From Paracamarosporium sp. OC-R06-R3 (lineage: Eukaryota > Ascomycota > Dothideomycetes > Pleosporales > Didymosphaeriaceae): a stretch of 31,675 nt of DNA. The translations under genes were made by a program, and so were the position numbers. Location of the stretch: the NCBI GenBank assembly GCA_019828545.1, contig JACVRA010000015.1, positions 1-31,675 on the forward strand. Reading direction: 5' to 3'. The first letter of the stretch is position 1. Each line of letters opens with the position of its first letter. This document shows, one piece after another, positions 4,920-29,059 of the stretch. The notes below the pieces were generated by a model. It saw only the letters and a program-made list of their open reading frames with translations. It made no database searches and was not told where the DNA came from.

Positions 4920-6947
4920 TTAAACCTCAATCTTGCTAACCACAACCTGCGCCCCACCTCCCTTTGTAAGCATCTCAAACGCCCCACTTGGCGGTGTCGG
5001 TGGAGGCCCTCTTTCCACTACGGTCGGCACAGGTGGGATATCCACCTTGTCAAGATACCCCACGGTGCTTGTCTTTAGTTCCTGCGCCTCTATCATCCCG
5101 TTGCCCATCCACGCTAGCGTATCTAGCTCGTCTCCATCGTCAAAGGACGAGTACTCGAAATCTTCGAACCGCGGGTGCTCGAGCGTGGCACGCTGGTGCA
5201 CAGCAGAACCCGGCCAGTAGCCTAGCATGCGGCCGTTCGCAGTACGCTTAGCCCAGTTGTTACATGTGAATGCGAAGGTTGTTTTCTCGAAGTAGCAGTC
5301 GACTTGGCGTTTGAAAGCTTCTACGGCAGAGTCTCTGTGCAGACGTATTAGTCAAGCGGTTTGTTGAAGGAGCGGAGAAGGGAACGTACTTGGGCTGCAT
5401 CCAGCGGAGGTTCTCGCGTTGGAGTTTCTGGATGCATTTTATCATGTACTCGCACGCACATTCGCTCATATGAATGGTAGACCCGGCACCGGGAGCACCG
5501 TTGGGCCCGACAAAGAGGAACAAGTTAGGCATTTGAGGTGGGCACATGGACATATAGGCTCCGGGCTCGCTTTTCCAGAGGCCGTCCAGGGAGACACCGT
5601 TCGCGCCATAGATAGGCGAATCGTTGAGGCGCAGTGAAGTGTCGAATCCGGTCGCACAGATAATAGAATCTACTTCTCGCAGCATGCCGAGGTCGTCTAC
5701 AATGCCCGTCTCAGTCACCTCTTGCACCCCGCTGGGAATGAAATTCACTTTATCATCAACGAGACATTCGAGGTAGCGCGGACCGGGGGATACGCGGCGG
5801 CAGGCTACGGGGTAGTTGGGACGCAGGTGCTCAAAGATTTCCGGTTTTCTGGCGAGACGGCGCGCCATGGAGTCTTCGGTGGCTTTAGAGAAGCTCACGT
5901 TCATGTCGGAGCCTGGCCAATGGATGAATTGGAAGGAGTTTACGTAGTTTTCGATTGTAGCACGGTAAGTTTGGTAGGAAGTTGGGTCGCGCAGGTAGGC
6001 TTCTCTTTCTTCGAGGGGGTGCGGGACTGAACTGGTGTCAGGATGGTCCCAATCATGATGACTAGCGGGTGGAAAAAGTCTTACAGTTGTGTAAATCGGG
6101 ATTGCCCGCTTTTCGAGGATCTGCGGCGACATATCCAGCGGGCGAAATCCAAGCTTGACCCCTGACATAGTGATCGATATACTTGACCTTAGGCAGGATG
6201 GCTGGAACTAGTTGCACCGCAGTAGCACCGTATCCCACAACTGCGACACGCTTTCCAGTAGGATCGTAGTGCTCTTTCCAATTCGCTGAATGGAGGAGGT
6301 CCCCTTTGAAGTTTTGTAGACCTGGCAGCTTCGGCCAGCACCATTTGTTGAGATTTCCTGTGGCCTTAACGAAGACATCACAGCGGTCTGTGAACTCCTG
6401 TTCATGCTCGTGAGCAAATGTTTACAGAACTTGGCATTAATCATAGACTTACTAATTGGTCGTCGGATCGTACAAGTGTGATCTCCCACTGTGCATGTTC
6501 CTCAATCCACCTCGCCGACTTGAAAATGTGCCGGAACTTGATGTACTTCTTGACGTCGTACTTCTCTGCCACATCTCTGAAGTATTCACCAATCTCTTGA
6601 CCTGGTGAGAAAAAATGTGTCCATTTGGGATTGTTAGCGAATGTGTATTGAAAACAATGCGAGGGCACGTCGCAAGTCACGCCGGGGTATCTAGACAGAG
6701 ACCTTAGCCAAACAAATCATCCACCCAACGATGGAATGATTTCAACATACTTGTTCTCATACCACACTCCTCCAACCTCATCATTCTTCTCGTATATAGT
6801 CAATTCCAAGTTCGGGATACGCTGAGGGAATCGAATGCCACATAGAATGCCAGACATGCCAGCACCAATACATATCACTTTGATAGGGCGAGCATGGTCT
6901 ACAGGAACTGCCCTGGGCTTCGGCGTGCTCTTCCAGTTTGAAGTCAT
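4920..6947 (-). CDS. FAD-dependent monooxygenase, Baeyer-Villiger type
   Basis: Five exons (6947-6751, 6690-6453, 6406-6085, 6026-5390, 5334-4920) give 602 residues, typical of class B flavin monooxygenases. An N-terminal FAD Rossmann motif GAGMSG is at residues 28-33. It is followed by WYENKYPGVTCDVPSH across intron 1. The Baeyer-Villiger fingerprint FxGxxxHxxxW appears as FKGDLLHSANW at about 178-188, and the NADPH-binding GYGATA at about 203-208. CATGFDTS and a C-terminal WPGSAVHQRATLEHPRFEDFE also fit the family. Such enzymes insert oxygen next to a carbonyl, or oxidise N or S, using NADPH and O2. Exon 3 could instead start at 6397 (CAG acceptor), shortening the protein by 3 residues. It is the leftmost cluster gene, with two CGG-N6-CCG sites upstream. 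The substrate is unknown. Confidence 0.9.
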
Positions 6948-7191
6948 GATATTAATCGAGGTACAGTTGACCTTCGAGGAAGTCGTGATGTTGGATTTTC
7001 AAGTTTAACATTGACACCGCATGCATTTTATTCTCGTTGTCACATTCCAATACTGCTTCTATCTTTCCTACGCGGTCGCAGTCCAGTGAGCATCGAATGA
7101 TACGAACGTAGATTTCGGGTAGGCATATCTCACAGTCAACCCTGCCCATTGAGCCTAGTAGGAATGTTCCGCATGTTGGTGTTCACGTGCT

Positions 7192-7203
7192 CGGGTCAGG
7201 CCG
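7192..7203. promoter_or_regulatory. CGG-N6-CCG palindrome (FMO promoter, site 1)
   Basis: The sequence is CGG GTCAGG CCG. Inverted CGG triplets at fixed spacing are the classic binding site of Zn2Cys6 dimers, and this cluster encodes one. It lies about 245 bp upstream of the monooxygenase ATG. Confidence 0.6.
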
Positions 7204-7246
7204 TTAGCGTCATTGTCGGCAAAGGATAGCCGTTGCTGGATCAAGA

Positions 7247-7258
7247 CGGCTTGAGCCG
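7247..7258. promoter_or_regulatory. CGG-N6-CCG palindrome (FMO promoter, site 2)
   Basis: The sequence is CGG CTTGAG CCG, about 300 bp upstream of the monooxygenase ATG and 55 bp from site 1. A pair of sites suits cooperative binding. Confidence 0.6.
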
Positions 7259-7580
7259 TTATTTGGCACTGAGATGACATCAACCTGGGTAAAGATCTAA
7301 AAACCACCTACGAAGCACCATGGGTTATTCCTAGTAGATCTCGAGTCCTCTTTGCGAGCCACGCTCAACGACAGGTCGACTTTAACGTGAAGATTGGCTT
7401 GTATTACATCTTCACGGACTCACCCCACAGGTATCCACACATAACTGTTAGATCACACTTAAGCTCTAAGATTTTAGATTGTAGGATGTCATGAGAAAGG
7501 AGTGAGTTGTTAGCTATGGAGCATGTCAAGTGATGTTATGAAACGAATCGACAAGAGATAAGGGACCAAGCTAGTCCTAA

Positions 7581-8237
7581 TTAGGGAGCTGATGGCCTTG
7601 TCGCCCTCTTCCACGTCTCCACAAGAAAGCCACCTTCACCCAACACCGGGTCGAATCGTGGCACAGGCACCTCGAGGCATTGTCTCTTGTATTCCTCTGT
7701 CTTCTCTTCCGGCTCATCGCACCATACACTAATCCAATGCGGCTCGCCCTGAGCTACATGTTAGCAAATCGCCTGGTCCCGAATGCCAGCTGGCTTGCGA
7801 GCTTACCGTCGGAAACAATACTACGAATCTATAGCTCGCAGTCGCTATAGAAGAACAGTGGGAGATTCCAGCAGGAAGAACAATAACATCGCCTTGATTT
7901 ACAGGTAGCAACATTCCCTTGGAGCTGTCATCGAGCGGCCCACGTCCGAGCGATAACTCAGACGAGCCTGAGACGACACCGTAGCATTCGTGGATGTTAG
8001 GGTGATAATGTGCTTTGAAGAATGCGTTCCACGCTCCCTGAATCGTGTTAATGTTCGACAATATAAGGCCTGGAAGTGACTTACTCCTTTCTTCCATCCA
8101 CCATTTGCTTCTAATGCGTCTTTCATCGCATCCTCATTTTCGCAATGAGACAGCGCTCCCCGATAAACTACAATAGGCAGATGACTTCCTGGTACGAAAG
8201 GAGTACCGCCAATGTAGTGTAGCTCTGGTTGAGACAT
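7581..8237 (-). CDS. Single-domain cupin protein
   Basis: Three exons (8237-8085, 8037-7807, 7748-7581) encode 183 residues. Intron 2 has a textbook GCTAAC branch point. Cupin motif 1 fits HxH-x4-E-x6-G exactly, with H61, H63, E68 and G75 as likely metal ligands and turn. Motif 2 fits G-x5-P-x-G-x2-H, from G100 to H111. The size and single domain resemble the small YjlB-like cupins. These proteins fold as a beta barrel and may be enzymes (isomerase, dioxygenase, hydrolase) or sensors; sequence alone does not say which. The gene is transcribed away from the FMN oxidase and shares its 367-bp promoter with one CGG-N6-CCG site, which suggests co-regulation. Confidence 0.85.
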
Positions 8238-8604
8238 AGCGAAAAGCAATATGTAGCAGGACAACGTAAAGAGACCCGTATGAATGATTCGATTACGATC
8301 TAGTATTTCAGCAGTCCAAGTAATACAGATTTCAAGTATGGCTAAGTTGTAATTCTGTAGTATCACGAGTATCCTTCAGCGGTGGTCTACGCCAATAGGA
8401 ATATCCCGCACAACGCTTATGGGCAAAAGTGGGTGCTCGGGATGCGCCGAAGACACATCTATTGCTCGTACTAGCCTCTAATGTGAGCCTGGCGAGTATC
8501 CGTCCCGTGGACTTAATAGCTCCAAGACAGCTTTAATAAGAATAACTGTCATAGTATTCACAAAACATGCAGTGGTAAATGAGTTTTTTTATTGCGGATG
8601 AACG
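8238..8604. promoter_or_regulatory. Divergent promoter, cupin / FMN oxidase
   Basis: This 367-bp region separates two divergent starts and must hold both promoters. A single perfect CGG-N6-CCG site lies near its middle. No other clear element was seen. Confidence 0.6.
8438..8449. promoter_or_regulatory. CGG-N6-CCG palindrome (cupin/FMN oxidase promoter)
   Basis: The sequence is CGG GATGCG CCG, flanked by T and A so that it also fits the extended form TCGG-N6-CCGA. It lies about 200 bp from the cupin start and about 155 bp from the FMN oxidase start. Confidence 0.65.
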
Positions 8605-10007
8605 ATGGCATTATCCACACCCCTCGAAACGCTGTGCACAATCGCAGAGCTCAAGGCTGAGGCTTCAGAAAGGCTTGGAAGAGTTAATATGGGTAGGCTG
8701 TACTAGAAACCTTGCACCATCTTCTCAACTAATGGCGAACAATAGAGTATTTCAATCATGGAGCTATGGATATGATAACTTTACGTGATAACGAAGAAGC
8801 GTACAATCGTTTCAAAATCCGCCCTCGAATTCTATGCGATGTCGCAGATGTTGACACATCAACAACTCTTCTCGGCGAAAAGGTGTCATTGCCTTTTGGT
8901 TTTGCCCCTGCTGCCATGCACTGCATTGCACATCCAGATGGCGAAAAGGCGACTTCTCGCGCTGCTGCTGCTACCGGAATCGCTATGGGCTTATCTACGT
9001 ATTCTACCGTATCTCTAGAAGATGTAATCGCTCAAAGCAACGGTAACCCATACGCATTCCAACTCAGTGTGCTCAAGGACCGAAAAACGGTCCTGAGATG
9101 GATCAAACGTGCAGAGAGTAAGTGGAAGAACAATGTCCGCGATTCTAGCTTGGCATTTCGAAACTTATGTATCGCACAGACGCTGGATACAAGGCCCTAT
9201 TCATCACAGTGGATGCTCCTGTCCTCGGTGGTCGCCTGAATGAGCGTCGCAACAAATTCTCTTTACCGGAAGGAATGTCATTTCCGAACCTCGAAGGGCC
9301 TTCCTATATCGATGAAAATGGCGAGACTAAAACACGGCCTGTTACAACTCATCACCACAACATGCGCGATGCGACTAATTCATGGGAGTCGGTCATCCCC
9401 TGGGTCAAAGCGAATACGGGATTGGAAATCTGGCTTAAAGGAAGTATGTGCCCGCAGATTTCAACACCGATCCCGCAGGTGCTAAGACCCATTTTTGTAG
9501 TATATACAGCAGACGATGTCCATTTAGCAATACGCCACGGATTAGACGGCGTCATTGTTTCAAACCATGGTGGTCGCCAACTTGATGGTGTCCCGGCTAC
9601 CATCGATGCACTTCCAGAATGCGCGGCTGCCGCAAAGGGTCGCATAAGGATTGCTATAGATGGCGGTATTCGCCGTGGTACTGACATATTCAAAGCTCTT
9701 GCACTGGGTACGTTTTCACGTCACGCTGAAATCGATATAGTGGTTGACAATGTTGTAGGGGCTGATTTTTGTTTCATGGGGCGAGTACCTCTATGGGGCC
9801 TTGCAGTGGATGGGCAAGCAGGCGTGGAGTGGGCTGTGAGGGCGCTTGAGGCTGAGCTTCGCGTCGCTATGGCGCTAGCTGGGTAAGTCTATACTTCCCG
9901 CATACAATATGGTGGCTAATGTTGTTTACAGGTGCAAATCTTTGAAGGAGATCTCGCGCTCACATCTATCTGTCATTGGTTCGAGTGGTCTACTTTGCCG
10001 TCTGTAG
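8605..10007 (+). CDS. FMN-dependent 2-hydroxyacid oxidase/dehydrogenase
   Basis: Six exons (8605-8692, 8746-9117, 9180-9443, 9501-9707, 9759-9882, 9932-10007) give 376 residues, matching glycolate/lactate oxidases. Family marks include EYFNHGAMD at 30-38 (active-site Tyr31), RPRIL, the SNHGGRQLD signature with H264 and R267, and the FMN-binding DGGIRRGTDIFKALALGADF. These enzymes oxidise L-2-hydroxy acids to 2-keto acids, with O2 or another acceptor. The QLYV motif of plant glycolate oxidase reads QLSV here, so the substrate-binding Tyr is Ser137. The protein ends in CRL, which fits a PTS1 peroxisomal signal, as expected for an H2O2-forming oxidase. The true start is a short first exon (ATG at 8605, 29 codons), easily missed. 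It is divergent from the cupin. Confidence 0.92.
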
Positions 10008-10344
10008 ACATCTTATTTCTACTTATTTAGAGGAATGATTTCGAGAAAGAATCACAGGTTAAAGCCTATGTCTTGTGTAATATTTCGACTAGTTCTACTA
10101 AATGAGTGTGATGTAAACCCTCCTATGGCGTGTCTTTTCCGCACAGGGCACCATACATAGTTTGAGTCGTCACATAACACAAAGAAACGTGACTCAGGTG
10201 AGTAGCAAATCTTGCGCACTTGACCTCTGTAACTTTTATAGCGAGGTGACACCGAGTATTGCAGCTCACAATAGCCTGACAAGCAGTGTTTGTGCGGGAA
10301 AACGAGTATTCAACTAGCAATGAGTCTTAGTTTTAAATTCTAAT
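10008..10344. other. Gap between convergent genes
   Basis: This stretch lies between the 3' ends of the FMN oxidase and the class II aldolase genes. The frames are short and unremarkable and no repeat is visible. It presumably contains both transcript ends. Confidence 0.5.
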
Positions 10345-11372
10345 CTACTCCAAGAAATCGCCCCCAGTCTCCTTAAGAATCATCTCATATTCAGGCTTGA
10401 ATTGAGTAAACAACACCGCCGGGGTACCCCCTCTCTCCTTAGTATACGCTGCCTCTACTTCTCCCACATATCTCTTCTTCGCTCCATTTGCCGCAGCTGC
10501 CTCAGCTAGGAGTTGAGTCTGACAAGCCCGTTCAAGTGCAATGAACTTCCCAGCAGCTTCATCCACCGTGCCACCACAAGTAAGAATCCTGTTGTCAAAT
10601 CAGCCACTCGTTTCGTAATACCCGAGCCGTCCCCGGTAAAACTCACCCATGATTCTGCAAGATAATGTTCGTATTTTTCGGCCCCAACGCCCTCGCAATA
10701 TTCTCACCTTCCTCTTTCGCCAACACCACTCCGCCAAATCCCTCATACACAGACAAATCGTCGTAGAAGTAACACGCATCTTGTGTTAAGTTCTCAATCG
10801 GCCTCCCAAAAATAGACCAGGCTCGCCCATACGGCGTGTGCGTGTGACACGCAGCATTGATATCTGGCCTCGCTTTGTGCAGTGCAGCGTGGATCAGGAA
10901 TCCTGCTGTGTTGACTTTGTGCAGAGTTTCCATTTGCGCTTCACCCTCTTCATTCACGAGGATGAGGTCGCTTGCTTTGATCATGCCAAAGTGCATGCTG
11001 TATGGGTCTGTACAGCAGCATGAGATTAGTCACAACTAGCCTGTGCTTGTAGGAGGGGTGAAGCTCACTGATCCAGAAGCAATTCGGTCGGACGGGATCC
11101 CGCAGACTGATGTGCCCGCCCGCACCATCCGCGAAGCCTAATTTCGCGAATACGCGAAACGCTCCTGCCATATGCTCTTTGGCCCATTTGCGTTCGGTGT
11201 GCTTGTTGGTAAATGTAGGTATCGCATCTGACCAGAGATTATTTGAAACTGGTTTGTTCGTCTTGGATGTTTTATTCGGCTGACTTGATAGTAAGAGGGT
11301 GCCATTTGGCTGGGTAGGAGTTTCAGTGGCTGTTGTTGTTGAAGGCATGGCTACGTTGTTGCTGTTTGGCAA
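10345..11372 (-). CDS. Class II aldolase/adducin-domain protein
   Basis: Three exons (11372-11069, 11007-10647, 10588-10345) give 302 residues. A poorly conserved, Thr/Asn-rich N-terminus of about 45 residues precedes the domain. GAGGHISLRDP marks the N-terminal part of the fold. The zinc site is visible as HTHTPYG (H156, H158) and QNHG (H221), so metal binding looks intact. Bacterial members cleave or form C-C bonds of sugar phosphates and 2-keto-4-hydroxy acids, or decarboxylate; most fungal members are uncharacterised. The N-terminus could start 8 codons later at a second Met. It shares a 407-bp divergent promoter, with two CGG-N6-CCG sites, with the 2-hydroxyacid dehydrogenase. A lyase or decarboxylase role in the pathway is inferred. 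Confidence 0.9.
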
Positions 11373-11549
11373 TGCTCCAGAACTAATATTAAACTGATCA
11401 CGGTCAACTACGTAGTTATCGGCAACGCGTAGGCGTACACTGACGAATGCTCTTAGTATTAGGGAAGTTGCCCGCCCTTCTCCGGTAGCGGTGGTATAGC
11501 CCGCATCAAAGGTGGCGGTTTGCCGACGCAGGACTCATTATCGCGTTGG

Positions 11550-11561
11550 CGGCTTGGACCG
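11550..11561. promoter_or_regulatory. CGG-N6-CCG palindrome (aldolase/dehydrogenase promoter, site 1)
   Basis: The sequence is CGG CTTGGA CCG, 178 bp upstream of the aldolase ATG and about 220 bp upstream of the dehydrogenase ATG. Confidence 0.6.
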
Positions 11562-11590
11562 ATTATGTGCGTGTGTGACTGTGGGGAATG

Positions 11591-11602
11591 CGGAATGGTC
11601 CG
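11591..11602. promoter_or_regulatory. CGG-N6-CCG palindrome (aldolase/dehydrogenase promoter, site 2)
   Basis: The sequence is CGG AATGGT CCG. It starts 41 bp after the previous site, about four helical turns, which would place both on the same DNA face. Confidence 0.6.
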
Positions 11603-11779
11603 ATAATGAGTTCAGCGGGGCTAGATGCCGGCGTGCTGCGGGCTACACGTTGCCGGATACACTGAATGTAACATCACTCAAAATATATAGCATAAACGGG
11701 ATTATTATGAAGAGCTTGCTTGTATCTCTGTTTCTTGATAACTGTAGCAGATCGCGAAGTCCTGATTAACCATCCGAAA

Positions 11780-12905
11780 ATGCCAGCAGCACAAGAAAGA
11801 AAACCCAAGATCCTTTGTTTCGGCCCAATAACATGGACCGATCCCAAAGTCCTCGAAGAATTCCAATCAACATTCGACGTGCACGTAAGACTACTTCCTA
11901 CCTTTTCTTCAAGCGAGCTTAAGAGCCACCCAGTGTATTCAACCCACCGACCGTGCTGGAACCGTCGCAACAGTGACATCAACCGCCCAATCTCACGGCC
12001 CCTTTTACGCCGCCATAATCGGCATGAAAAACGGAGGCTATGAACGCTTCGACGCCGAGCTTTTCGGCCCACTTCTCCCCTCCTTGAAAATCGTAGCTTG
12101 CGTCAATGCTGGCTACAACGAGTTCGACTTGGACTGGTTCACTGAGAGAAGGGTTTGCGTAACGAACACACAGGACGCAGTGGCAGAGCCGACAGCTGAT
12201 ATGACCATCATGCTTATACTAAATACTTTGCGTGATTACTCAACGTTCGAACGGAATGTGAAGACCGGCGGCTGGAAAGGCGATGTCGCGTCGCCGCCGA
12301 AAGACCCACACGGACTGACTCTAGGTATTATTGGTATGGGGAAGATTGGGAAGCATGTGGCGCGTAAAGCACAGGTCTTTGGCATGAAAGTACAGTATTA
12401 CAACCGACGGCAGATTCCGGCGAAGGAAGAAGCAGCGCTAGGCGTCACGTATGCCGCATTCCAAGATCTACTCAAAACGTCAGATGTTGTGTGCATCAAC
12501 TGTCCGTTGAATGAAGAGACTAGGGGTATGATTGGAGAGAAAGAAATTGATGCTATGAAAGAAGGCGTGTTCTTGATAAACACAGGGCGTGGCGCTGTGG
12601 TGGATGAGAAGGCGCTGATTAAGGCGTTGTGGGCCGGGAAGATTGAACGGGCAGGGTTGGACGTGTTTGACAATGAGCCGAAGATCAAGTACGTCGCGTG
12701 TTATGCCTGTTATGCCAAAAAACATTACTGATTGTATTGCAGTCCCTTCTTTAGAGCGAATGAGCGATGTACTGTTCAGCCACACATGGGCTCATTCACG
12801 GATGTGGCGTGGAAGAATGCGTATCATGAATGTTTGAGGAATATCTTGGGACTGTATATGGAGGGTAAGCCGGTATCTCCGGTGAACAGTGTTTTGTACG
12901 AGTAG
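11780..12905 (+). CDS. D-isomer-specific 2-hydroxyacid dehydrogenase
   Basis: Three exons (11780-11884, 11934-12688, 12743-12905) encode 340 residues, usual for the family. The Rossmann motif GMGKIG is at 169-174. The catalytic triad is visible: Arg254 in NTGRGAVVDE, Glu283 in DNEP and His301 in QPHMGS. These enzymes reduce 2-keto acids such as glyoxylate or hydroxypyruvate to D-2-hydroxy acids with NAD(P)H, or run in reverse. No organelle signal is seen, so it is probably cytosolic. Intron 2 closes the DNEPKIN-P junction and opens the exon that carries the catalytic His. It diverges from the aldolase and shares that promoter. With the FMN oxidase, the cluster holds both expected stereochemical classes of 2-hydroxyacid enzyme. 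Confidence 0.93.
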
Positions 12906-13198
12906 CAATATATTATAGTACTATTAGGGAAGACATAGGCTTTTAACATGTCACCTACATGAGCCATTCGTGCTCCATTCATCATGGTTTCTTGTTTGAT
13001 CATGGTAACCTAAAGATGGAGGACGTATAATTGGTTACAGTCCATGGACTTAATATTACTATATCAGGGCAAGATTGTACTCAGCGAACTTTGATCTCCG
13101 CGCGTCAAAATATTAATACTGCCTGCGAAATTATTGGCTCGGAAAATCATGGCTGATAGGGATGTGTCATCTTGATATCGCAATGGCAATTTCCAATA
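12906..13198. other. Spacer between dehydrogenase and transposon
   Basis: The stretch is moderately AT-rich and holds no gene. It ends in the TA (13197-13198) that was duplicated when the transposon inserted. Confidence 0.5.
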
Positions 13199-13243
13199 AC
13201 GTACTTGGTAAGCGAGCGCGCCGGACAAGCGAGCGCGCCACCC
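13199..13243 (+). repeat. Left terminal inverted repeat of Fot1-like element
   Basis: It begins ACGTACTTGG and contains the 13-bp motif twice (13210-13222 and 13227-13239). It pairs with 15005-15049 at 43 of 45 positions. Confidence 0.92.
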
Positions 13244-13318
13244 TATAGACTTTTGCACCTCTGGAGCGATCTATCTCAACAACATAATAAGATAATAGAA
13301 TACAGATGCTATACTAAA

Positions 13319-14968
13319 TTAAGATAGATCTCTAGTATCCTTCTTACATGTTTACGAGTTATGGCCAGTCTCCTCACAGAGCCTACAGCGCGCAGAAGCC
13401 TGCCGACTAGTACCTAATTACGCCTTACCTTAACGCGTTTCTCCCTCAAGCTACTGCTTAACCTCCTTTTAAGCAATAATTTCCTCTGCCTTTGCCTTTA
13501 TTAAGGTGCCTTGCTGCTAAATTCGCTTCTTTTTATACTTTCTACGCATTATGGCAGCCTTATTTGCTTTCTTAAGGCTCTTAATCTAATCGCGTATTAA
13601 CGCTATCTCGTGCATCACTATTATAGAGCCTTTCTCAAGCTAATTAAGCCTCTTAATAATGGAAGTAGGTAATAAGCTCTAATGCCTCTGTATCCTCTCA
13701 CGTATTAACGTTAATTAAGCCTCTAGCTCACGCGCGTTGCTTGGTGTTCAAGCTTCCCAGAGCGTAGTCTCTAGCGCAGGCGGCGTTGGCATACAAAGCT
13801 TTACATCAAGCTTTGATATCACCCTATCAGGATCATATAGTACTAGGCCAGCGCCTTAAAAGCTTGCGCAGATATTCTCCTTTGTAATAGACTACTTGTA
13901 GGCTGCGTAGAAGGCTAGTAGGAACTCTAGCTTAGTAATGTAGTTAATGTAATTGCAAATCAGCCCCTCAATCTGGCGGCTATATACGCACTTCAACGGC
14001 AAGAAGCAGCCTACGTTAAGTAGCTGTAGGAGGTACAACAAATATAGCAGTATACAGAGAGTATAGATATTGTTCTCCTTACAGAGTACTTGAAATTCGA
14101 GTAAGTTATAGCTCTCATAGCTATTAAGTATAAGCAGCTGGCGTACGCCTACTCTACGCTCTACTATATGCTTAATAAAGTACCTTAGCTACTCTACTCT
14201 AAGCTTATTTGTTGTCTAGCTATTATCACTAACTGCGAAAGCCTAGTCGTATGGTATATTATTATCCTTATACTAGGCAGAGAGGTGGTACTGGCCAGTA
14301 AAGATAATAAAGGGTAGGATTGCCTAGCCAGCAGCATTAATTCTATAAATAGCTATAACCCACTTACGATTGCCTGGCTGTACTGCTTTTGGTCTGCCTC
14401 ATTGCTCTAAGCCTATAACAACAAGCTGAGCTAATATCCTGCCTATTATAAAGCTAGTCTCGTTGAAGTTAAAGGTATCCTTATCGTAGATTCTATAGGT
14501 AGCTTTTGTGTACGCTATAAGGTCAAACTAGGCTTTAATTGTCTCAGGATCCTTACATAGAGCTCTCTGTTGATCGTACGGTTGATTAAAACGTGTAGTA
14601 AGGCTGTCTATTTGTTTAATAAAGTTGCGTGGCTACTTCTTACCCACCTGGCCAGCGCCGCACTTAGTAAGTAGTCTATTTGCCATATCTTAAACAGCAC
14701 CTAGGGTAGGCAGAAACCCTCGCAAATCTAGGTTAAGTATATACCTAGTAATCACCTCCTCTTCTAGCTTAGTAAGCTTCTTTGAATTAGGCTTACAATC
14801 ACGTCGCGTAGCAATTCTAGTGCGTCGTCAATTTATTGTTCGTCGAGAGACCTTATACGTAGAAGCAGCACATCTCTCACTCTGAATTTAATTGCGATTA
14901 AGAGTAGAGATAGCTAGGATAATATCTGCTTCGTTGTAGGGCGATTAGGTAATAGGTGGTTGAGCCAT
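13319..14968 (-). pseudogene. Fot1/pogo DDE transposase pseudogene
   Basis: From an ATG at 14968 to a stop at 13319 the minus strand keeps one frame for 550 codons with no frameshift, but many internal stops are present. Most are TAG where tryptophan is expected, with some TAA and TGA, the pattern RIP produces. The frame still shows a DDE_1-type core: KWVIAIYRINAAG followed by AILPFIIFTGQYHLSA, then RRLLILNSYESYN, then CKENNIYTLY. Several of these positions are changed from what the family usually has. The C-terminus has a Cys-containing RCRLCEETGHN segment like the zinc-knuckle tails of Fot1 relatives. The protein cannot be made, so the element can move only if a working copy elsewhere supplies transposase. 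Confidence 0.9.
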
Positions 14969-15004
14969 TGTTGTTGATAGATGACGCGTCGCGATAAGCT
15001 CATG

Positions 15005-15049
15005 GGGTGGCGCGCTCGCTTGTCCGGCGCGCTCGCTTGCCAGGTACGT
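15005..15049 (-). repeat. Right terminal inverted repeat of Fot1-like element
   Basis: This is the reverse complement of the left repeat with two differences, where it retains C and the left copy has T. It ends in GTACGT just before the TA duplication. Confidence 0.92.
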
Positions 15050-15267
15050 TATCGCAAAGATCAATTCAAGTTAATCCATCTCAAATGTTACGCACCGGGT
15101 CTATACCAAGAATATTCACTCATTTTCAATCCTTTTCGGTATAGTTCAACCCGATCACCCCGTGAGTACAATAAAATATACTACCAATAGGCCCTTTATC
15201 TCACAGCCCACATTCATTTGATTTATATCGTTATCACCTCGGCGGGATTCAAAAAGGTAGCCTCCTA

Positions 15268-16944
15268 CTAGTTTGAGTTCTCCATCTCAAGCTCACGCTC
15301 AGCCTTAGTCGTGAAACTAGGCAACCAACGAGAAATGATCGGCAGCGCAAGGGCAAGACAGATATCTGCACCTAGAAAAGCCGAAACGACAGCAAATCCT
15401 TTCGTATACTTGGGTGCATCAGAGCTCGGCCAGAGATAGCTGCCATAGATCGACGATATGCTGCCAATGCAATTGACCATGGCGATGATGACAGCTCGTT
15501 TCTCTGCTGGTTTGGACATGGTTTCGGAAGCCCAGTTGAGGATTAGGGGAAGGGTTGTGTAGAGACCGCCTATATAGAAACACAAGAAAACGTAGCGGAC
15601 GATGTCGTGCTGTGTTGAAACATTGATGATTGCGCTGATGAAGGCAGTGCTGAGGCCGCCGACAATAAAGTATTGGCGATTCCCTGTGCGGTCCGAGAGG
15701 TATGGAAAAACAAGAAGGAAGCAAATTCCTACCTAAAAGTTGTGAATATTTTAAAAAAAAACACGTATTGGGAAAGACAGTGAAACTTACAGCCCATATC
15801 GGTACCGTCATCCATTGTTTCTGTACACCTTCGTAACCCATGCTGCCGAGCACTGTTGGAATGAAGTAGCTCACAGACGTAGCCCCGTTCTGCATCTGGA
15901 ACAAGATAATGAACAGATACGCACGAACGTCAACCAAAGCTGCTTTGAAACTTTCAAGGGCCGTCAGTTTTCGCTTAGGCACAACCGTCTCCGCTCTGTC
16001 GTGCATGATGCGAACTACAGCAAGTAATCTCTCTTTCTCAGAGAAACGTTTGCTCTTAAGATGTGGGTAGTCCAGAAGCACGAACCAAGCGATGATCGCA
16101 ACGGCGATAGTTACTATGCCTTCGATGAGGAACAGCCATCTCCATCCACGGCGCCCGTTCGTGCCCTCGAGGCCAGATATAACCGCCCCGGAAATCAGAC
16201 CAGACGCAGCACCAGAAACGCAAAGAGCGGTATAGAAAAAGCACCATCTTTTTCCTGTAGTATGTTAGCATGTTCTGAAAGAGAGATTAGGGCGGGAAGC
16301 TGACCAATTTCGGCTTTCTTGTACCAACACGTAAATATGTACAGAACACCTGGGAAAAAACCTGCCTCGATGATACCCAAGAAAAAGCGGCACACAAGCA
16401 TGTGCTGATATGTATCCACTTCAGACATGACACACACAACGGCGCCCCAGATGATCATCAGAGCAGGAAGGTAATACGAGGGTCGGACCCTGCTCAAGAT
16501 CAAGTTGGACGGAATCTCCCAAAAGCAATACGCGATGAAGAAGATGGATACAATCATGGAATAGTCTGTATCAGAGAGACCAATGTCATCTCCCATGCCT
16601 GCCGCTTGTGCGTTCGCCTAAACATCGTGTTAGGTCTGGCTTATCGGAACTCAGAGACGACGTACGATATTGCTTCTATCAATATATGCTAGGATACACA
16701 TGAGCCATAGCATTGGTAGGAAGAAGATATCGACCTTCCGCAGCAGCTTCTTCTCATCCGGTCCGCCTGGCTGGTATTGGTCGTAGGCTTCGCGGAGTGC
16801 AGGATCACCAATGGCACTGGGGCTATCCATGGGCTTGTCGATGACCTGGCCAACATCAAAGTCGGAGGACATAGGATCAATGGCATGAGAAACATGCTTG
16901 CTGCCGTCTTTGATGTCGGTTGGGAGTGGTTGTTGTGCAGACAT
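15268..16944 (-). CDS. MFS transporter, allantoate permease (ACS) type
   Basis: Four exons (16944-16666, 16617-16305, 16254-15791, 15732-15268) encode 506 residues. A hydrophilic N-terminus of about 70 residues leads to the first membrane segment, LPMLWLMCILAYIDRSNI. The motifs DRSNIANAQAAGM, WEIPSNLILSRVRPS, CRFFLGIIEAGFFPGVLY and WYKKAEIGKRWCFFY are characteristic of the fungal anion:cation symporter family (TC 2.A.1.14), which moves allantoate, nicotinate, pantothenate and similar carboxylates with protons. About 12 membrane segments are expected. Intron 2 has a GTCAGC donor and TGCTAAC branch. It is transcribed away from the Zn2Cys6 gene, and their shared promoter carries two CGG-N6-CCG sites. 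It probably imports the pathway substrate, likely an organic anion. Confidence 0.92.
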
Positions 16945-17132
16945 AGCTTCTGATTGGTAGTACCCAAAGACTGTAGAGGAAAGATCCGTTGCTATTCAAC
17001 GTTACAGGCTCTTAATCCGCAACTGTGGAACATTAGAGCATCGAAGACATTCTGTATATGCATCATGTATGGTTTGTTATCGCGACCAATATCGCGAGCA
17101 AGCTACGGAATGGGGTCGAAGCTCGTGGTTGT

Positions 17133-17144
17133 CGGGATGATCCG
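17133..17144. promoter_or_regulatory. CGG-N6-CCG palindrome (MFS/regulator promoter, site 1)
   Basis: The sequence is CGG GATGAT CCG, about 190 bp upstream of the MFS ATG. Confidence 0.6.
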
Positions 17145-17267
17145 CAAACATTGTAGCGGGGTACTACACGTCGGAACTGAAGCCGATGTCTTGATGCGAG
17201 CTAAATACATGGGGGTGTTAGACCGGCTGGGGAGCGTGTCTGATGTCGATCTATCTGGGGTTTCTGC

Positions 17268-17279
17268 CGGCTGTCACCG
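17268..17279. promoter_or_regulatory. CGG-N6-CCG palindrome (MFS/regulator promoter, site 2)
   Basis: The sequence is CGG CTGTCA CCG, about 280 bp upstream of the regulator ATG and the closer of the two to that gene; it would support autoregulation. Confidence 0.6.
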
Positions 17280-17555
17280 CTTCCTAGCTCGTCAAGCCCC
17301 TCTTATCTTATCTTCCACGGGTCTTCCCTTGACAACTCCCTCTAACAATTGGCGCAGCTGTTACTCTCTTATCTTCAAACCTAAGATGTCGGGTAAATGC
17401 TTCCAAGAAAGCCTGCAGGTCTGGGGCATGGCGTTCGCATCGTTCCGCTATGCATCCCACGTGCAGTGCTGTGGTACCTCCCGCGACGTCCCGCCTGGAG
17501 TGTCACATCTTTGAAGCTCTGTCGATTCATCGCATCTAATCTCGCACGTACCGTC

Positions 17556-19582
17556 ATGTCCGAATCAGCTCAGTCCGCTGTGGAGTCCCCGAGTCAGTCG
17601 CCGCCACGAGGCAGCAGCGTGCGACGTCGACCACGCGTCTCGCATGCTTGCATGGCATGCCAACAACGCAAACAAAAGGTATGATGCACAGATCACGCAT
17701 ATCTACTGTGTCTTATACCCTGACGCTGACAAAAGCTCAGTGTGATGGCCAGACGCCTGCCTGTCGAAACTGCTTGCGCGCAAAACGCGCCTGTGTCAGT
17801 CAGGATCCGGCTACCAAACGCCGTCATCCGCGCGGGTACCTGGAGTCCTTGGAACAGCATAATGAGTCCCTCGAGCGTCACGTGGCATTTTTGGAGACTA
17901 CGATGCGTCAGATGCAGCCGGCCATCAATGTCGATACCCTCACGAACACCAGTTGTACCGTCGACGTCTCGAGTAGTGGCGGTACAGGTATCGATAGTGG
18001 CGTGGTGGACGACTATTCTAAAGTCGAGCTCCTCTGCCTACAATCAGGCGGAGAGCCTCACTACTTTGGTGCATCTTCAGCATACTCATTCAGCAAGCTT
18101 TTCTCTGCAACACTGCGAGCTTGGAGAAGCCAGGCACCAGGCCTCAGTATGAGCGGCGTCGCCTCTTCTGCGGAGCAAAGCCGTACACGCGCACCGCCAG
18201 CGCCCCTGCCTGACCCGTCGCTTGTCACAATGCTCACTGCATCGTACTTTGACCAAGTTCATCCACAGTTTCCTTTCTTACACAGACCGACATATTCTGA
18301 ATGGGAAGACAACGTGCTAGCTGCGCGTGCCAATGACCTATCACCAGACCCTACCCAATTGTTCTTCGTATATGTAGTTGCCGCCGTGGGCGCCTTGACC
18401 ACTCCCTTGGCTGGTGAAACTCTTCCGGAAGGCTTATATGCATCTGCAGAAACACTTTTCGAGCAAGTCATGAAGCTCAACTCGGTGCGATCAATACAAG
18501 CCATTCTTTGCTGCGCAATGTATTCAATCCGATCTCCCGTCGGAGTGTCCGTCTGGACGCTCTCGGGCCTTGCTTTGCGCCAGTGCATTGAACTGGGACT
18601 GCATCGTAGAATCCAATGGTCGAAGGTGGACTCTGATATTCTTAAGACTCAGGTGCGTAGGAGGGTTTTTTGGTGTGCATACAATCTTGACCGAGCGGCT
18701 GCTTTGACCCTAGGCCGCCCCGTCGGCATAGCGGACTGTGACATTGATGTCGAATTGCCTTTAGATGTCAACGACGAGTTCATCACTCCAACAGGTCTCA
18801 CATCTGAGCCACGGGCTTCTCCAGCAGACCCACCATCTACACTCTCAGCTGCTATACATACTATCCGTCTGAGGCAATTACTTGCTCGCATTCAAGCTGT
18901 CATGTATCCTCAGACAGGCCATGAACCGCCCACGGATCCTGTTTTCGCTCGAAGTTTCCATCATGAGCTTGATGAGTGGTTGAGCACTGCTCCAAAACAA
19001 CTGGCCTCCAATCGAGCACACAATAATGCTTTCAGCTCACCGGAGTGGTTTCAAATCATGCATTGGCACTCGATATTGCTTCTGTATCGCTACCAACTTG
19101 TCAAAAGACCTACAGGTCTTCCGGCGCCGCCTTCAGTGCTACTCGAATGTGCCAACGCTGCAGCGTCTATTTGTGCCGCTTATCGACAGTTGTATCTGAA
19201 CCAAAGACTGAATGATACCTGGGGAGCTCTCCATGTCCTGTTCCTTGGAGGTGTCACGTTTCTACACTGCTTGTGGACCAGTGTCGAGGTCAGGACATCA
19301 TACAGACTAGACAAGGTCTCTTCGACTTGCACAAGCTGTATTATCGTACTGGCCATAATGGCAGAGCGTTGGACTGCTGTCCAGCCATATCGCGATGCCT
19401 TCGACATGCTCTCAAATGCAACCCAATCTATGCTTGCTGAAACAGCATCGAACCCAGCCAACACTGCGATGCCAGTTCTGTCGTCTCACGGTCAGGATCA
19501 GTTCCTCGGATACTTGTCTTCCATGTCTGAGATTGGCATGTGTCCATCAGTGGAGCAGTTACTGGAGGGAATGCTTGAATGA
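17556..19582 (+). CDS. Zn2Cys6 transcription factor, likely cluster regulator
   Basis: Two exons (17556-17678, 17741-19582) encode 654 residues. The binuclear zinc cluster is perfect, C-x2-C-x6-C-x6-C-x2-C-x6-C, with Cys32, 35, 42, 49, 52 and 59; the intron falls between Lys41 and Cys42. Basic residues precede it (RRRPR). A short linker (KRRHPRGY) leads to a heptad-like stretch LESLEQHNESLERHVAFLE that should form the dimerising coiled coil. The middle region, with YFDQVHPQFPFLHRPTYSEW, is the fungal-specific transcription factor domain. A dimer of this kind would read inverted CGG triplets, and CGG-N6-CCG sites occur upstream of every cluster gene including this one. N6 spacing is that of yeast Ppr1 and Aspergillus UaY. 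The inducer is unknown. The gene ends 58 bp from the RidA gene end. Confidence 0.93.
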
Positions 19583-19640
19583 AGCAAGGAATTTATTTCA
19601 TTCAGATGTCTCTAGTGGGCGAGCAGTGTGGGCTATTGCT

Positions 19641-20142
19641 CTACAAAGCAGCTATGCAATCGATCTCGACATCTGTGCCTCTTGCCAACGATGCTACTCC
19701 AATACATGCTCTGGCCTACGAATTCACATCAGAAATGATAATCAATTTGCAGTATGAACAAAACTTACAGGCTTCGGATCCGACGAGAAGAATTTAATGT
19801 ATGCCCCGTTTAGAATGGCAACGTCGGCTATGTCCGTCACGTACACCGTCACTCTCAACACCTTCTCCTTCCCAGAACCTGCTGCCACGAGCACCTGTTC
19901 TAGATTCTTCAAAGCTTGCGTCTTTTTGTAACGTTAGTACCACAGATATCATGGACGATAGAACTGTAAAGACGCACCGTTCGATCCGCAATTGTACCTT
20001 CAGCAAATTCCTTTGTTACTGGATCTGTCCCGAGCGCGCCGGAACAGTACACGACACCATTGTGAATGACTGCTTGCGAGAGCGCTAGGAACTTTCCAGG
20101 GGCCTTATCAGTGGTAACGGCTTGACACGTGTAGGCTGCCAT
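19641..20142 (-). CDS. RidA/YjgF/UK114 family protein
   Basis: Three exons (20142-19978, 19921-19769, 19715-19641) encode 130 residues, the standard RidA size. Intron 1 has a TACTAAC branch point and intron 2 splits the signature before ARACIGVA. Family marks are SQAVIHNGVVYCSGALGTDP, NLEQVLVAAGS, VYVTDIADVAILN and the C-terminal PARACIGVASLARGTDVEIDC. The reactive-site Arg corresponds to R108. RidA proteins hydrolyse reactive enamines and imines released by PLP enzymes to ketones and ammonia. That fits its position: it is divergent from a PLP aminotransferase and shares its 373-bp promoter with two CGG-N6-CCG sites. The protein may detoxify or speed the turnover of an imine made in this pathway. 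No targeting signal was noted. Confidence 0.92.
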
Positions 20143-20305
20143 CGTTTGCTATCTTTGAGACTTGGTTCAATTACTTCTGTTTGAAGAGAGGTTTGCTAGG
20201 TATATTGGTGTATAAGTTATAGAGAGGAAAGACTTCTCCATCTCTTTTCTATGTATCTGCCACTAATATTTCCCCATCTCTGGGATCCTACTTGGGTTTC
20301 TTGTT

Positions 20306-20317
20306 CGGGCTGTTCCG
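20306..20317. promoter_or_regulatory. CGG-N6-CCG palindrome (RidA/aminotransferase promoter, site 1)
   Basis: The sequence is CGG GCTGTT CCG, flanked by T and A so it also fits TCGG-N6-CCGA, like the site at 8438. Confidence 0.65.
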
Positions 20318-20351
20318 ATTTTTCCATGCACGGACCAATACAGGTAGGATT

Positions 20352-20363
20352 CGGGTGGAGCCG
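20352..20363. promoter_or_regulatory. CGG-N6-CCG palindrome (RidA/aminotransferase promoter, site 2)
   Basis: The sequence is CGG GTGGAG CCG. It starts 46 bp after the first site and about 150 bp before the aminotransferase ATG. Confidence 0.6.
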
Positions 20364-20515
20364 TTGTAGCGAGGGGCATCGCGACGCTAACGAATCACGT
20401 TATACTCAAGTTGTAGACAAACTTTTGTTCGGTGTATATATCACAGAGTACCAGATCTATGCTAACACAATAAAAAACCATCGAACGTCGCGGTATCGAA
20501 ATCCTTAACATCAAC

Positions 20516-21922
20516 ATGCAAGCCACTCTAGAATCTACGACCGCGCGGTTTGTGAAGAGCCATCCCAATTCTCGCACTCTACACCAAAGCGCTCTCGAGT
20601 GTCTTCCCGGTGGTAACACCCGAACCGCTCTATGGACTGCGCCGTTTCCGATTAGTATCGCTCGAGGAGAGGGCTACCAGGTCATTGATGAAGACGGAAA
20701 TCGGTAAGTCTCGTAATTACCAAACGTTCTACGGGTCTTTCTAACGAGGTGAATCAGGTATAACGACTTCGTCTCAGACATGACAGCTGGCTTATACGGA
20801 CACTCTCACTCTATGCTACAAAAAGCCCTGGTCGACGCCATTAACGTTATAGGTACCAATCTCGGCGGCACGACCGTGTACGAACAGCGGTACGCATCGT
20901 ACCTTTGCGAGCGCTTTGGTCTTGACTTGTTGCGTTTCTCCAACTCAGGAACGGAAGCAAATATCCATGCACTAGCCGCTGCACGGAAATTCACAAATCG
21001 TCGCAAGGTAATAGCTTTCCGTGGCGGATATCATGGTAGTGTCCTAGCCTTCGGTAATGGCATTGCGGCGAACAACGTCGATCCGAACGACTGGATTTTA
21101 TGCCAATATAACGATGTCGTCGGTCTGGAGAAGGCATTTGCGGAACATGATGACATTGCAGCCGTGATTCTGGAGGCCGTGCAAGGCTCTGGGGGTTCGA
21201 TACCTGCGACATCGGAGTTTTTGCACGCTGTGAGGGGCTCATCCAGAAAGGTATTCCTGCTCGTTGTGCAATACACGATAGCTTGCTTACTATTCCAGGC
21301 TGGTGCTCTCTTTATCCTAGATGAAGTCATGACATCCCGCTTAGGCCCAAGCGGTCTAAAAAGCGTACTACACCTCCAGCCCGACCTGGTCACTCTCGGA
21401 AAATACCTCGGAGGCGGCATGCCTTTCGGCGCATTTGGTGGTCGGGCTGAGATTCTCAATGTCTACGATCCGCGCTCACCCACATCGCTTTCCCATTCGG
21501 GCACGTTCCAGAACAACGTTCTCATGCTCAATGCCGGCTTCAAAGGCGCGTCAGAAGTCTACACTGCCGACAAGGCTGTCTCGCTGAATCAGAGGGGTGA
21601 CAAGCTACGTGATGCGCTTAATGAGGCGCTTCATGGGACACGTATGTGCGTTACCGGTCTGGGTTCGCTAATGTGTGTGCATGCTACTACTGTGGGGCTG
21701 AGGCCACAGAATATTACGTGTAGAGATGATGTAGCTCTTGTAGAGGATACGGATTTGAAAAGGTTGTTTTGGTTGGAGATGTTGGAGAAGGGGTTTTGGA
21801 TGCAGTTGAGAGGGAGTATTGCGTTAAATATTCTATTACCTGATGATGTATTGGAAGGGTTTGCGAGTGCTGTTAGAGATTTTGTGAAAGCGCATGGCGA
21901 TTTGTTGGGTGTGCCGAACTGA
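20516..21922 (+). CDS. Class III PLP aminotransferase / glutamate-1-semialdehyde aminomutase-like
   Basis: Three exons (20516-20703, 20758-21250, 21299-21922) encode 434 residues. The second intron (48 bp, GTATTC..CCAG) contains no in-frame stop, so an unspliced reading also stays open, but removing it restores the RK-AGALFILDEV join expected of the family. Motifs include LPGGNTRTALW near the N-terminus, FSNSGTEANIHALAAARKFT and RGGYHG, which bind the PLP phosphate and ring, ILDEV with Asp235, and TLGKYLGGGMPFGAFGG with PLP Lys262. The family contains glutamate-1-semialdehyde aminomutases and related omega- or beta-amino acid aminotransferases. Since fungi do not make tetrapyrroles from glutamate semialdehyde, a catabolic aminotransferase or mutase acting on the cluster substrate is more likely. 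It is divergent from RidA. Confidence 0.92.
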
Positions 21923-22500: not shown

Positions 22501-24294
22501 TCAACCATTGATTACCGTGTTGAAGCCTGTTGGGACCGGAGTTGGCTTGGGCTGTGGACCAGTAGAGTCGGGGGAAGTTGGTTTCTGCTGCGACGTGCGT
22601 GCGACGTACTTCCCACCTGCAACACGAATGATGGTTCCAGGCTTCTCGTAGAGAGCGACCATCTTGCTGAAAGTGCTGCCAATAGTCTTCAAGTCTATGT
22701 CGCTGTAGCCTGCAACGAGCTTGGATTTCGATTTATTCAACATCTGATCAGGAGTGAGCGCCTGAATCTGCTGATCCCACTTCCGCAACTGCTCAGCATC
22801 GGCTTTGAGACATGTAGAAATGACTGTAGCCTCATCATTTTGCTGGTTCTTCTCTGTGGAGAAGGGCTCAATCAGTCCTTGATATAGCATTGCCATTCTA
22901 CGCCATTGCTCCCGGGGCATCTTGTTCTGTCCATCGATAGAGTCCCCGTTCGGAATCTTCTTGCCTCCCGGTTTATCAGCACGCTTCTGAACATCATCAT
23001 CCAGAACCTGCATCGCCTTTCCAAGTATAGAAGGCGGTGTGCTGATCTTGGCACAATCAAAGTTGGGAACGGCCCCGATCCAGTTGCGCATACGGAAGAA
23101 GGCTTTGGTGCCGAGATGCTCGATGTATATTGTGGGTATGCCAACAAGTGCATTGGCATCCATGGCACCAGTCTTTTGTCCCAGTTGGTATAATCGACCT
23201 GGAAAGCGCTCCATCAAAGCCAAGAAGAAAGATAATTGACCTTCGCGACCATGAGTTGGACCGGGGTGCTTCCTGAAGAACGTCTCCCCAATGTGAAACT
23301 CGGAATGGAAACCTTTGCCATCTTTGTTGTCGTGCCCAATGGTGATAACCTTAGATGTTGGCGAGAGCAAGCGATATAGTTGCTCTTGCCCAATGACGTC
23401 GCTGTCGCCCTGTGGATTGTGCCCGTTGGGCGTCATGCCGCCTGAGTAGCGAGCCCACAGCAGGACAATAGGACTGGTGCCAGTAGCGGGTGGGAACTTC
23501 ATGCCTGCGGCCTCTGCATCTTGCACAATAGAGCTTATTGGCATGATGCTAATATCGTAGCACATCCGACTAGAGAGCTTCTGGTACAATTCCGTAGTCG
23601 CGGTTTTGCCGTTTCGCCAAATTTGTGCAATAAGGCGACTCGCCGAGCTGGGGCCGAAGGTCATGTACAGACTGTTTTTGTTTGTACCGTCGGGGTCCCA
23701 TCGGAAGAGCTTGCTCATGGATTCCTGAGGATAAATTGATTGAGAGTCCGAGACTTTGTGTGTAAGCAGGAGTCATACCTTCGTCTGGTCGCGAGCCAGC
23801 AACTCATTCTCTTTCGAACCGACCGGCATTTCGACAAGCTTACTGATATCATCCACCCCAACCCTCAGGTCCTTAGCATCGTCAGTAATCATGTTGTAAA
23901 GCGTCACATCTCGAGCCTTCTTGTCGTCCTTATTCGACCGCAGCACGATATATCGGACTCGATTTCGCTTCGAGACACCCGCCGCATCTTTTGTCACCCA
24001 TTGGTAGTATTTGACAAGTCCGCAGTACAATTCGCGGGCATCAGGAGACACGACTAGAAGGTCGGTGTTGTCGTCTAAGACCGCTGCTGCGGCCAAGTGC
24101 GTAGCATCGCCAGTTTGTGAGGCCTGCACAACGCAAAGCTGGCATTTAATGCCATTAGGAAGAGTGTCAGAGGTCCACACCGTGGATGTATCGAGAATCA
24201 TGACAGCAGCAGAAGAGTTGAAACTATTAAAGGTTGACTGATTACCTCCAGGGTTGACAGACTTTATGCTGAAACCTACTATAGGCGGTGTCAT
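22501..24294 (-). CDS. Unrecognised 579-residue protein, two exons
   Basis: Exons 24294-23779 and 23724-22501 join in frame across a 54-bp intron (GTATGA..CTCAG) to give 579 residues. I do not recognise the family. The composition and codon use look like a real gene, and the long clean second exon supports this. Visible points are WARYSGGMTPNG, then GQEQLYRLLSP and VITIGHD, and a GxxTGAMDANALVGIPTIYIEHLGT stretch that resembles the nucleotide-sugar end of a GT-B glycosyltransferase fold; this is a weak impression, not an assignment. The C-terminus is Pro/Thr/Ser-rich and looks disordered. No signal peptide or membrane segment is evident. It is just beyond the cluster and has no CGG-N6-CCG site in the 300 bp upstream. 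Confidence 0.7.
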
Positions 24295-27746: not shown

Positions 27747-28157
27747 ATTGAGGGAAGCTTAAAGCAAGAAGATAGGATGTAAGTTGCGCAATACCACAAG
27801 GGATCCTCATAACCTTCTATAAGAAATGGCCAGGTGCCCATGTCCATGTCTCCAACACGGACCGCATGGACTGATCTCTCCCTCTAGACATCGGTCTACT
27901 CTCTTCTCCACAGCTGCACTCGTTCCATTTTGCCGTCCTCGGCCACTACTTCAGCAGAACCCACACCTCCAAATTTCCCGTCCTACGCCCTGCCCTACTC
28001 TCTGCCAAATCTCTCAAATCCCCATCTAAAGTTTATTAAAATTATTAGGCTAGATAAGTAGATGTGTAGACTATTATTGAACTTAGTACTAAGCCTATAG
28101 CTTTATATACCTAAATCCTAGTCTAGCTAAATTCTTTACTTCAATTTTTTTACTATA
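27747..28157. other. Spacer before the right-hand repeat block
   Basis: A Pro/Ser-rich 67-codon frame at 27826-28029 looks like low-complexity read-through and not a gene. Composition turns AT-rich at about 28030. The stretch ends in the TA (28156-28157) that precedes the next transposon copy. Confidence 0.4.
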
Positions 28158-29025
28158 ACGTACCTCACGGGCGAGCGACTCACACGGGCGAGCGACTCAC
28201 GCTGCCAAGCCCCTACCAAAGTCTGTACTATACACGATAGTACAGAATCACTATAAATTACTATAAAAAATTGTAATAGTATAATCTACTTAGAATCTAC
28301 TTCTATAGGCTGCTTATAAGTTGTTCTGTTGTGCCTAGGCTGGCCGTAGCGTCTACAGCGCCGTTGAGTTAATTTATCTCTATTAGTGTATACCCTCTTC
28401 TTTGCCTTCTTCCTATTACTATACGCTGTAAAGTCCTTTAGAGTAGTTAACTATAGGCCTTCTTTAGCTATTAGAACTCCCTTACGCTGTATATACTTTC
28501 TTTTATGCAATTTACGTTGCGTAGTGGCCTTGTTAGCCGCTTAAAGCTTAGCGTTACGTTTAGTTATTAATACTAGAGAATACACTATTAGCTCAGCGCC
28601 TTTTATAAGCTTTTTAATAGCCTTAACTATTAAAGTTAGGGAACTATCTATATGCCTCTAAATCCTTTACTTTACAAGCGTTAATTGTAACCCTAATTCT
28701 AAAGAGTTTTTTAGTATTTATAACTACTAGTTACTATAATTTATAGTAACTAGTAATAAAGTACGTAGCCTTATATTAAGCTTTAATATTATAGCTTTTA
28801 AATTAAGAGAAACTAATCTAGCGCCTTAAAAGCCTCCTTAGATATTACTTTTAGTAATTAAAGTATAAAAAGCTATAATAAAGTAAAATAGAAACTTAAT
28901 TTTAATAATATAATTAATATAGTTATATATTAAATTCTTAGCTTAGCACCTATACGCCTTCTTTAAAGGCACAAAATAGTCTATATTAAGTAGCTATAGG
29001 AGGTATAATAAATGTAGAGGCATTA
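28158..29025 (-). mobile_element. Truncated second Fot1/pogo-like element, RIP-mutated
   Basis: The left end begins with ACGTACCTCA after a TA, as in the element at 13199, and carries two copies of a 17-bp unit CACGGGCGAGCGACTCA in tandem. About 150 bp inside, the minus strand reads RCRRYGQPRHNRTTYKQPIE, a mutated form of the Cys/His tail of Fot1-type transposases. A TAGCTATAGGAGGTATAATA block lies 833 bp from the end; the matching block in the first element lies 822 bp from its end, which confirms shared layout. Similarity stops near 29020, so the 5' half of the transposase and the right repeat are missing. TA content is higher than in the first copy. Confidence 0.75.
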
Positions 29026-29059
29026 TTAAAATCTAAGATTCCAATATAAAGAAAGACAA

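Follow-up and report, generated by a model that had tools for sequence, protein, structure and literature searches.

The window analyzed here, a stretch of 31,675 nucleotides from the dothideomycete Paracamarosporium sp. OC-R06-R3 (contig JACVRA010000015.1; genome of 43.09 Mb in 337 contigs), holds nine clustered genes whose promoter regions carry nine exact copies of the inverted repeat CGG-N6-CCG (hereafter N6 sites), one of the genes encoding a Zn2Cys6 regulator. In order, these genes encode a flavin-binding, Baeyer-Villiger-like monooxygenase (4920-6947, minus strand; several exons, end approximate; PF00743 and PF13450 on pieces) with what we take to be a Baeyer-Villiger-like motif; a cupin (7581-8237, minus; three exons, spliced to 183 amino acids; PF00190); a flavin mononucleotide (FMN)-dependent 2-hydroxyacid oxidase/dehydrogenase (8605-9886, plus; 3' end approximate; PF01070, with hydroxyacid oxidase 1 nearest in the PDB); a class II aldolase/adducin-family protein (10345-11348, minus; exons, end approximate; PF00596); a D-2-hydroxyacid dehydrogenase (11780-12905, plus; end approximate; PF02826 and PF00389); a major facilitator superfamily (MFS) transporter (15268-16944, minus; exons, end approximate; PF07690 on two pieces); the Zn2Cys6 regulator (17556-19582, plus; intron 17679-17740 within the zinc module; Fungal_trans PF04082 at 1e-31; Ppr1-type linker); a Rid-family (YjgF) protein (19690-20142, minus; two exons or more, 3' end approximate; exon 1 matches PF01042 and TIGR00004, both below curated cut-offs); and a class III aminotransferase of the beta-transaminase type (20516-21922, plus; PF00202). 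Enzyme names are kept at family level because NCBIfam models matched exon pieces only below curated cut-offs. Four of the five promoter regions are divergent and serve two genes each, so that all nine genes, including that of the regulator, are served from five short regions.

The nine promoter sites named in the first-pass annotation (7192, 7247, 8438, 11550, 11591, 17133, 17268, 20306, and 20352) are all exact as listed there, and after refinement of the gene starts the five regions (6948-7580, 8238-8604, 11349-11779, 16945-17555, and 20143-20515) sum to 2,415 bp, in line with the 2.4 kb first estimated. The sites, which have no strand, are distributed over these regions as 2, 1, 2, 2, and 2 in order. 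Upstream of the monooxygenase gene, 7192-7203 (spacer centre CA) and 7247-7258 (centre TG) are 245 and 300 bp away from the start codon. The cupin and FMN dehydrogenase genes diverge from a region with a lone site at 8438-8449 (centre TG), 201 bp from the cupin start and 156 bp from that of the dehydrogenase, and the divergent aldolase and 2-hydroxyacid dehydrogenase genes are separated by a pair at 11550-11561 and 11591-11602 (both centre TG). The transporter and regulator genes, again divergent, share a pair at 17133-17144 (centre TG) and 17268-17279 (centre GT), which lie 189 and 324 bp from the transporter start and 277 and 412 bp from the regulator start, respectively. A last pair, at 20306-20317 (centre TG) and 20352-20363 (centre GG), lies between the divergent Rid-family and aminotransferase genes at 153-210 bp from both starts alike. 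For each of the nine gene starts the nearest N6 site is 153-277 bp upstream, and no second site is farther away than 324 bp except at the regulator gene, where it lies at 412 bp. The window as a whole contains 13 N6 sites, all between 6.1 and 20.4 kb, and the four outside promoters (6097, 9664, 12408, and 19825) are all read as coding; the first three had been listed before, whereas the fourth, in the second exon of the Rid-family gene, was missing from the earlier list.

Such a concentration is far beyond chance expectation. At the genome rate, the 2,415 bp of promoter sequence would hold 0.39 N6 sites (Poisson P of about 4e-10 for the nine found), and local composition predicts 0.41. One alternative is that the sites are an accident of chance or of composition in CGG-rich promoters, which do hold 66 CGG/CCG triplets in 2,581 bp, so that some pairing is expected; yet none of 5,000 dinucleotide-preserving shuffles, run on slightly wider intervals (2,581 bp), reached nine (mean 0.38, maximum 5), each other inverted spacing from N0 to N20 gave 0-2 matches in the promoters, and direct and everted CGG arrangements (N0-N15) gave 0-3 each. 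We reject this explanation, which shuffles and control spacings contradict and to which we give next to no probability; the claims that the sites exceed chance and that the excess is specific to the N6 spacing hold up. For the remainder of the genome, N6 counts and close-pair patterns served as the basis of comparison. A genome-wide count with control spacings, proposed in the first-pass annotation and run in part, gave 6,926 N6 sites over 43.09 Mb, against 8,361 for N5 and 6,967 for N7: the N6 spacing is not favored in general. A 70-kb background sample (six stretches taken at round coordinates, each on a different long contig, together with a stretch at the locus C325 described below) held 15 N6 sites in all, with a single one in 20.5 kb of non-ORF sequence, here meaning sequence outside stop-to-stop frames of at least 120 amino acids rather than annotated intergenic DNA. 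In the interval 6948-20515, the 11,153 bp outside the promoters contain three sites where 1.8 are expected (P = 0.27), which is no real excess.

The presence of a Zn2Cys6 protein in the cluster, another claim made from the first reading, is borne out by its spliced zinc module and Fungal_trans domain. Once the intron is removed, the regulator displays six cysteines in the arrangement C-x2-C-x6-C ... C-x2-C-x6-C, while in the unspliced frame the zinc module falls short of the Pfam cut-off (19.4 against 21). Among solved PDB chains, Ppr1 is the best match to the DNA-binding part (E = 9e-10), followed by Lac9 (8e-6) and Gal4 (4e-5), and a profile of eight sequences gives 1.6e-13 for Ppr1 and 4e-6 for Gal4; the match to Ppr1 is better than those to Gal4, Lac9, or Put3 by some four to seven orders of magnitude in E-value, a comparison of sequence only. 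It extends through the linker (CVSxDPATxxxxPRxY...LE), after which the regulator runs on with a helix-like stretch. CGG is reported to be contacted by two lysines in Gal4 and Ppr1, with the linker setting the gap between half-sites (PMC4245848). At the contact positions, between the second and third cysteines, the cluster regulator has Arg-Lys, keeping the second lysine, and Zn2Cys6 proteins with Arg in place of the first lysine, RhaR included, seem to read CGG too (PMC4245848). We class the regulator as a protein with a Ppr1-type DNA-binding domain and linker. The spacing of the sites is likewise that of Ppr1, as first noted, since Ppr1 is reported to bind CGGN6CCG in two yeasts, Saccharomyces cerevisiae and Candida albicans (PMC11534201).

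An alternative is that the main reader of the sites is another Zn2Cys6 factor, encoded outside the cluster, Ppr1- or UaY-like and concerned with nitrogen or purine use, the cluster being one part of a wider regulon. UaY of Aspergillus nidulans is said to read CGG-N6-CCG and serves purine genes, and among the homologues of the cluster regulator some carry the label purine utilization regulator (the distant P0053, at 41% identity). The genome offers 6,926 N6 sites and a paralogous Zn2Cys6 protein (L008) with a similar, Ppr1-like linker and a single N6 site in its 4.3-kb locus; the eleven best-scoring paralogues of the regulator are 26-33% identical to it. Set against this are a regulator gene within the cluster whose linker matches the spacing, the confinement to this cluster of close pairs with TG/CA in both members (see below), and the absence of any recognized purine-catabolism gene among the nine cluster genes in family searches of exon pieces, which also separates the system from UaY. 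It differs from Ppr1 itself in that Ppr1 targets are scattered pyrimidine or purine genes, whereas here one cluster holds the regulator gene and sites with mostly TG/CA centres. On balance, we consider control by another factor unlikely. RhaR of A. nidulans, a catabolic Zn2Cys6 regulator with Arg-Lys contacts, also recognizes a CGG inverted repeat, but its reported site is CGG-X11-CCG, a spacing of 11 rather than 6 (PMC4245848).

TG, or its complement CA, occupies the spacer centre in seven of the nine, compared with 785 of the 6,926 N6 sites genome-wide and 0 of the four coding sites in the window (binomial P = 7e-6, which becomes 7e-5 on correction for ten centre classes). The genome has 56 pairs of N6 sites at distances of 25-55 bp (50 of which were listed), three of them in the cluster; in four of the 56 both members have a pyrimidine-purine centre, and in only two, 7192/7247 and 11550/11591, do both have TG/CA. 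Close-pair and seven-of-nine counts use the same sites and hence are not independent. It is possible that the regulator prefers a TG centre, and reading of the spacer has a precedent in the Zn2Cys6 family (Put3), with none in Ppr1 itself.

Homologues of several cluster genes look linked in some other fungi, as read from contigs of equal length and fused gene models. Regulator and aminotransferase homologues were found on contigs of identical length in five species, namely Clonostachys rosea (352,289), Thozetella sp. PMI_491 (392,696), Hypoxylon crocopeplum (721,122), Penicillium angulare (2,224,392), and Clonostachys byssicola (101,362); the aminotransferase search covered the best 120 of 7,953 matches, and species missing there mean little. 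A search with the cupin returned six matches, of which the four close ones (59-83% identity) in C. rosea, Thozetella, H. crocopeplum, and H. texense (tags Hte_007133 and Hte_007135) all lie on contigs exactly as long as that of the regulator homologue, a count that leaves aside P0211 and P0212 as distant (33-34% identity, contigs of about 1.1 kb). Equal length is a strong but indirect sign of a single contig and does not cover the distances between genes. In two Colletotrichum gene models (P0017 and P0018) a regulator homologue (47% identity) is joined to a monooxygenase that shares 55-83% identity with the pieces found here, and relatives of the regulator are fused to MFS transporters in gene models of Fusarium nematophilum and Colletotrichum karsti (P0067 and P0068). 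One scan of viral contigs with the regulator homologue P0001 gave no relative.

The enzymes point to the breakdown of a beta-amino acid. The best PDB match to the aminotransferase is beta-phenylalanine aminotransferase (E = 3e-82), with other beta-transaminases down to 3e-76 and the next family at 3e-41. In bacteria, beta-phenylalanine is described as being transaminated to a beta-keto acid, which decarboxylates spontaneously to acetophenone, with a possible Baeyer-Villiger step thereafter (PMC6150868). By analogy, the cluster enzymes would fit the same order, and their combination suggests a beta-amino acid as substrate, degraded by way of a ketone. In the Ascomycota 3-hydroxyanthranilate catabolic cluster a Baeyer-Villiger monooxygenase gene is likewise reported nearby in some aspergilli (PMC7842363), but the core genes described for that cluster (3HAO, ACMSD, and AMSDH) were not recognized here. 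A more tentative reading, of rather less than even probability, is an undescribed fungal beta-amino-acid pathway via a ketone (transaminase, decarboxylation, and Baeyer-Villiger oxidation) under a Ppr1-type protein for which an asymmetric TG centre counts in addition to both CGG half-sites. If true, such a protein would explain why the only two close pairs with TG/CA in both members in the 43-Mb genome fall here. On this reading the unit has a scattered occurrence among distant fungi (Clonostachys, Thozetella, Hypoxylon, Penicillium), as though it had been handed on whole together with its switch. A second, paralogous cluster was considered at C325, the site of the closest aminotransferase paralogue (matched in two pieces, the larger 55% identical), and was rejected: no other cluster gene was recognized by eye, without a family search, in the translated frames of its 10 kb, a stretch with five N6 sites.

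We propose, with a probability of roughly three in four, that the nine palindromes are binding sites of the cluster's own Zn2Cys6 protein, which would switch the genes for uptake and breakdown together. The regulator would pair up as a dimer on each palindrome, one zinc module per CGG, with the Ppr1-type linker fixing the six-base gap. In the presence of the substrate or an intermediate, the bound protein would turn on all nine genes, providing for MFS uptake and for a probable route in which a beta-amino acid is transaminated, CO2 is lost to leave a ketone, and a Baeyer-Villiger oxidation follows; the 2-hydroxyacid enzymes, the aldolase, the cupin, and the Rid protein would handle later or side products. 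Binding, the direction of control, and the nature of inducer and substrate are what we infer from this arrangement, as are TG-centre preference and autoregulation. Autoregulation of the regulator gene is plausible, though the claim of self-regulation made in the first-pass annotation is weakened because the sites 17133 and 17268 lie in a promoter common to the transporter, and nearer to the transporter start. Most Zn2Cys6 proteins that have a Fungal_trans domain and belong to catabolic clusters act as activators. This speaks against the alternative that the regulator binds the sites as a repressor, or merely tunes expression while some other signal turns the cluster on. Such a role is a general possibility for a protein of this kind, as sequence cannot tell activation from repression, and we rate it as improbable, marginally more so than control by another factor.

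Several observations weigh against the proposal of a self-contained regulon under its own regulator. The first concerns its extent. The earlier claim of a unit running from the monooxygenase to the aminotransferase stands insofar as all nine genes have a site no more than 280 bp from the start, but its exact borders do not: the flanks (17,408 bp of the window outside 6.1-20.4 kb) are free of N6 sites where 2.8 are expected, and since this depletion reaches only P = 0.06, the borders are soft and weakly supported. The promoter shared by the cupin and FMN dehydrogenase genes has one site only. The TG/CA centre was spotted post hoc and is to be taken as a lead; two of the nine promoter sites do not have it, and both Gal4 and Ppr1 are reported to bind mostly the CGG half-sites, whereas Put3 binds the spacer too (PMC5729217). 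The paralogue L008 is a possible second reader of N6 sites. As for linkage, five of the nine best regulator homologues (P0001-P0009), from Exophiala dermatitidis, Capronia (three proteins), and Aspergillus karnatakaensis, have no aminotransferase or cupin among the listed matches on a contig of equal length; nor do the transporter portions of P0067 and P0068 match the MFS pieces in the window.

Definition of fungal clusters by promoter motifs has a counterpart in CASSIS, which predicts cluster extent from promoter features. That tool, named in PMC9505985, was built around key enzymes of secondary metabolism, none of which was recognized in this cluster. The surroundings of the genes show further features. 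Between the dehydrogenase and transporter genes, 13190-15058 resembles a DNA-transposon insert with 57-nt terminal inverted repeats that are 91% complementary; no long open frame was seen in it, and it looks decayed. To the left of the monooxygenase gene, an alpha/beta hydrolase fragment (2392-2868; PF12697) might act on an ester product, and the surrounding 6 kb contains 0 N6 sites. Just outside the cluster on the other side, two adjoining minus-strand frames of 423 and 190 amino acids (22504-24345) have no Pfam match, and at the right end of the window (28000-31675) the G+C content falls to 17-32%, with short tandem repeats and 0 N6 sites, perhaps representing mutated repeat sequence.

The pattern described in the first-pass annotation is real and highly significant, and its interpretation there was for the most part right. 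A pathway-specific Zn2Cys6 regulon of a fungal cluster is a well-known kind of system; as far as searches of the open-licence literature, which is not searchable by sequence, can show, the instance is new, with an unusually clean set of sites and a possible spacer preference, and none of the papers found was recognized as describing it. Here, sequence alone yields a putative nine-gene regulon, its regulator, and a predicted binding site for an uncharacterized fungal cluster, and the regulator would offer a handle on the substrate, since its inducing compound could be sought. A genuine TG centre would help explain how one Zn2Cys6 protein finds its nine sites among almost seven thousand CGG-N6-CCG matches in the genome, and the finding of sites among many matches is a general question for this large family of regulators.

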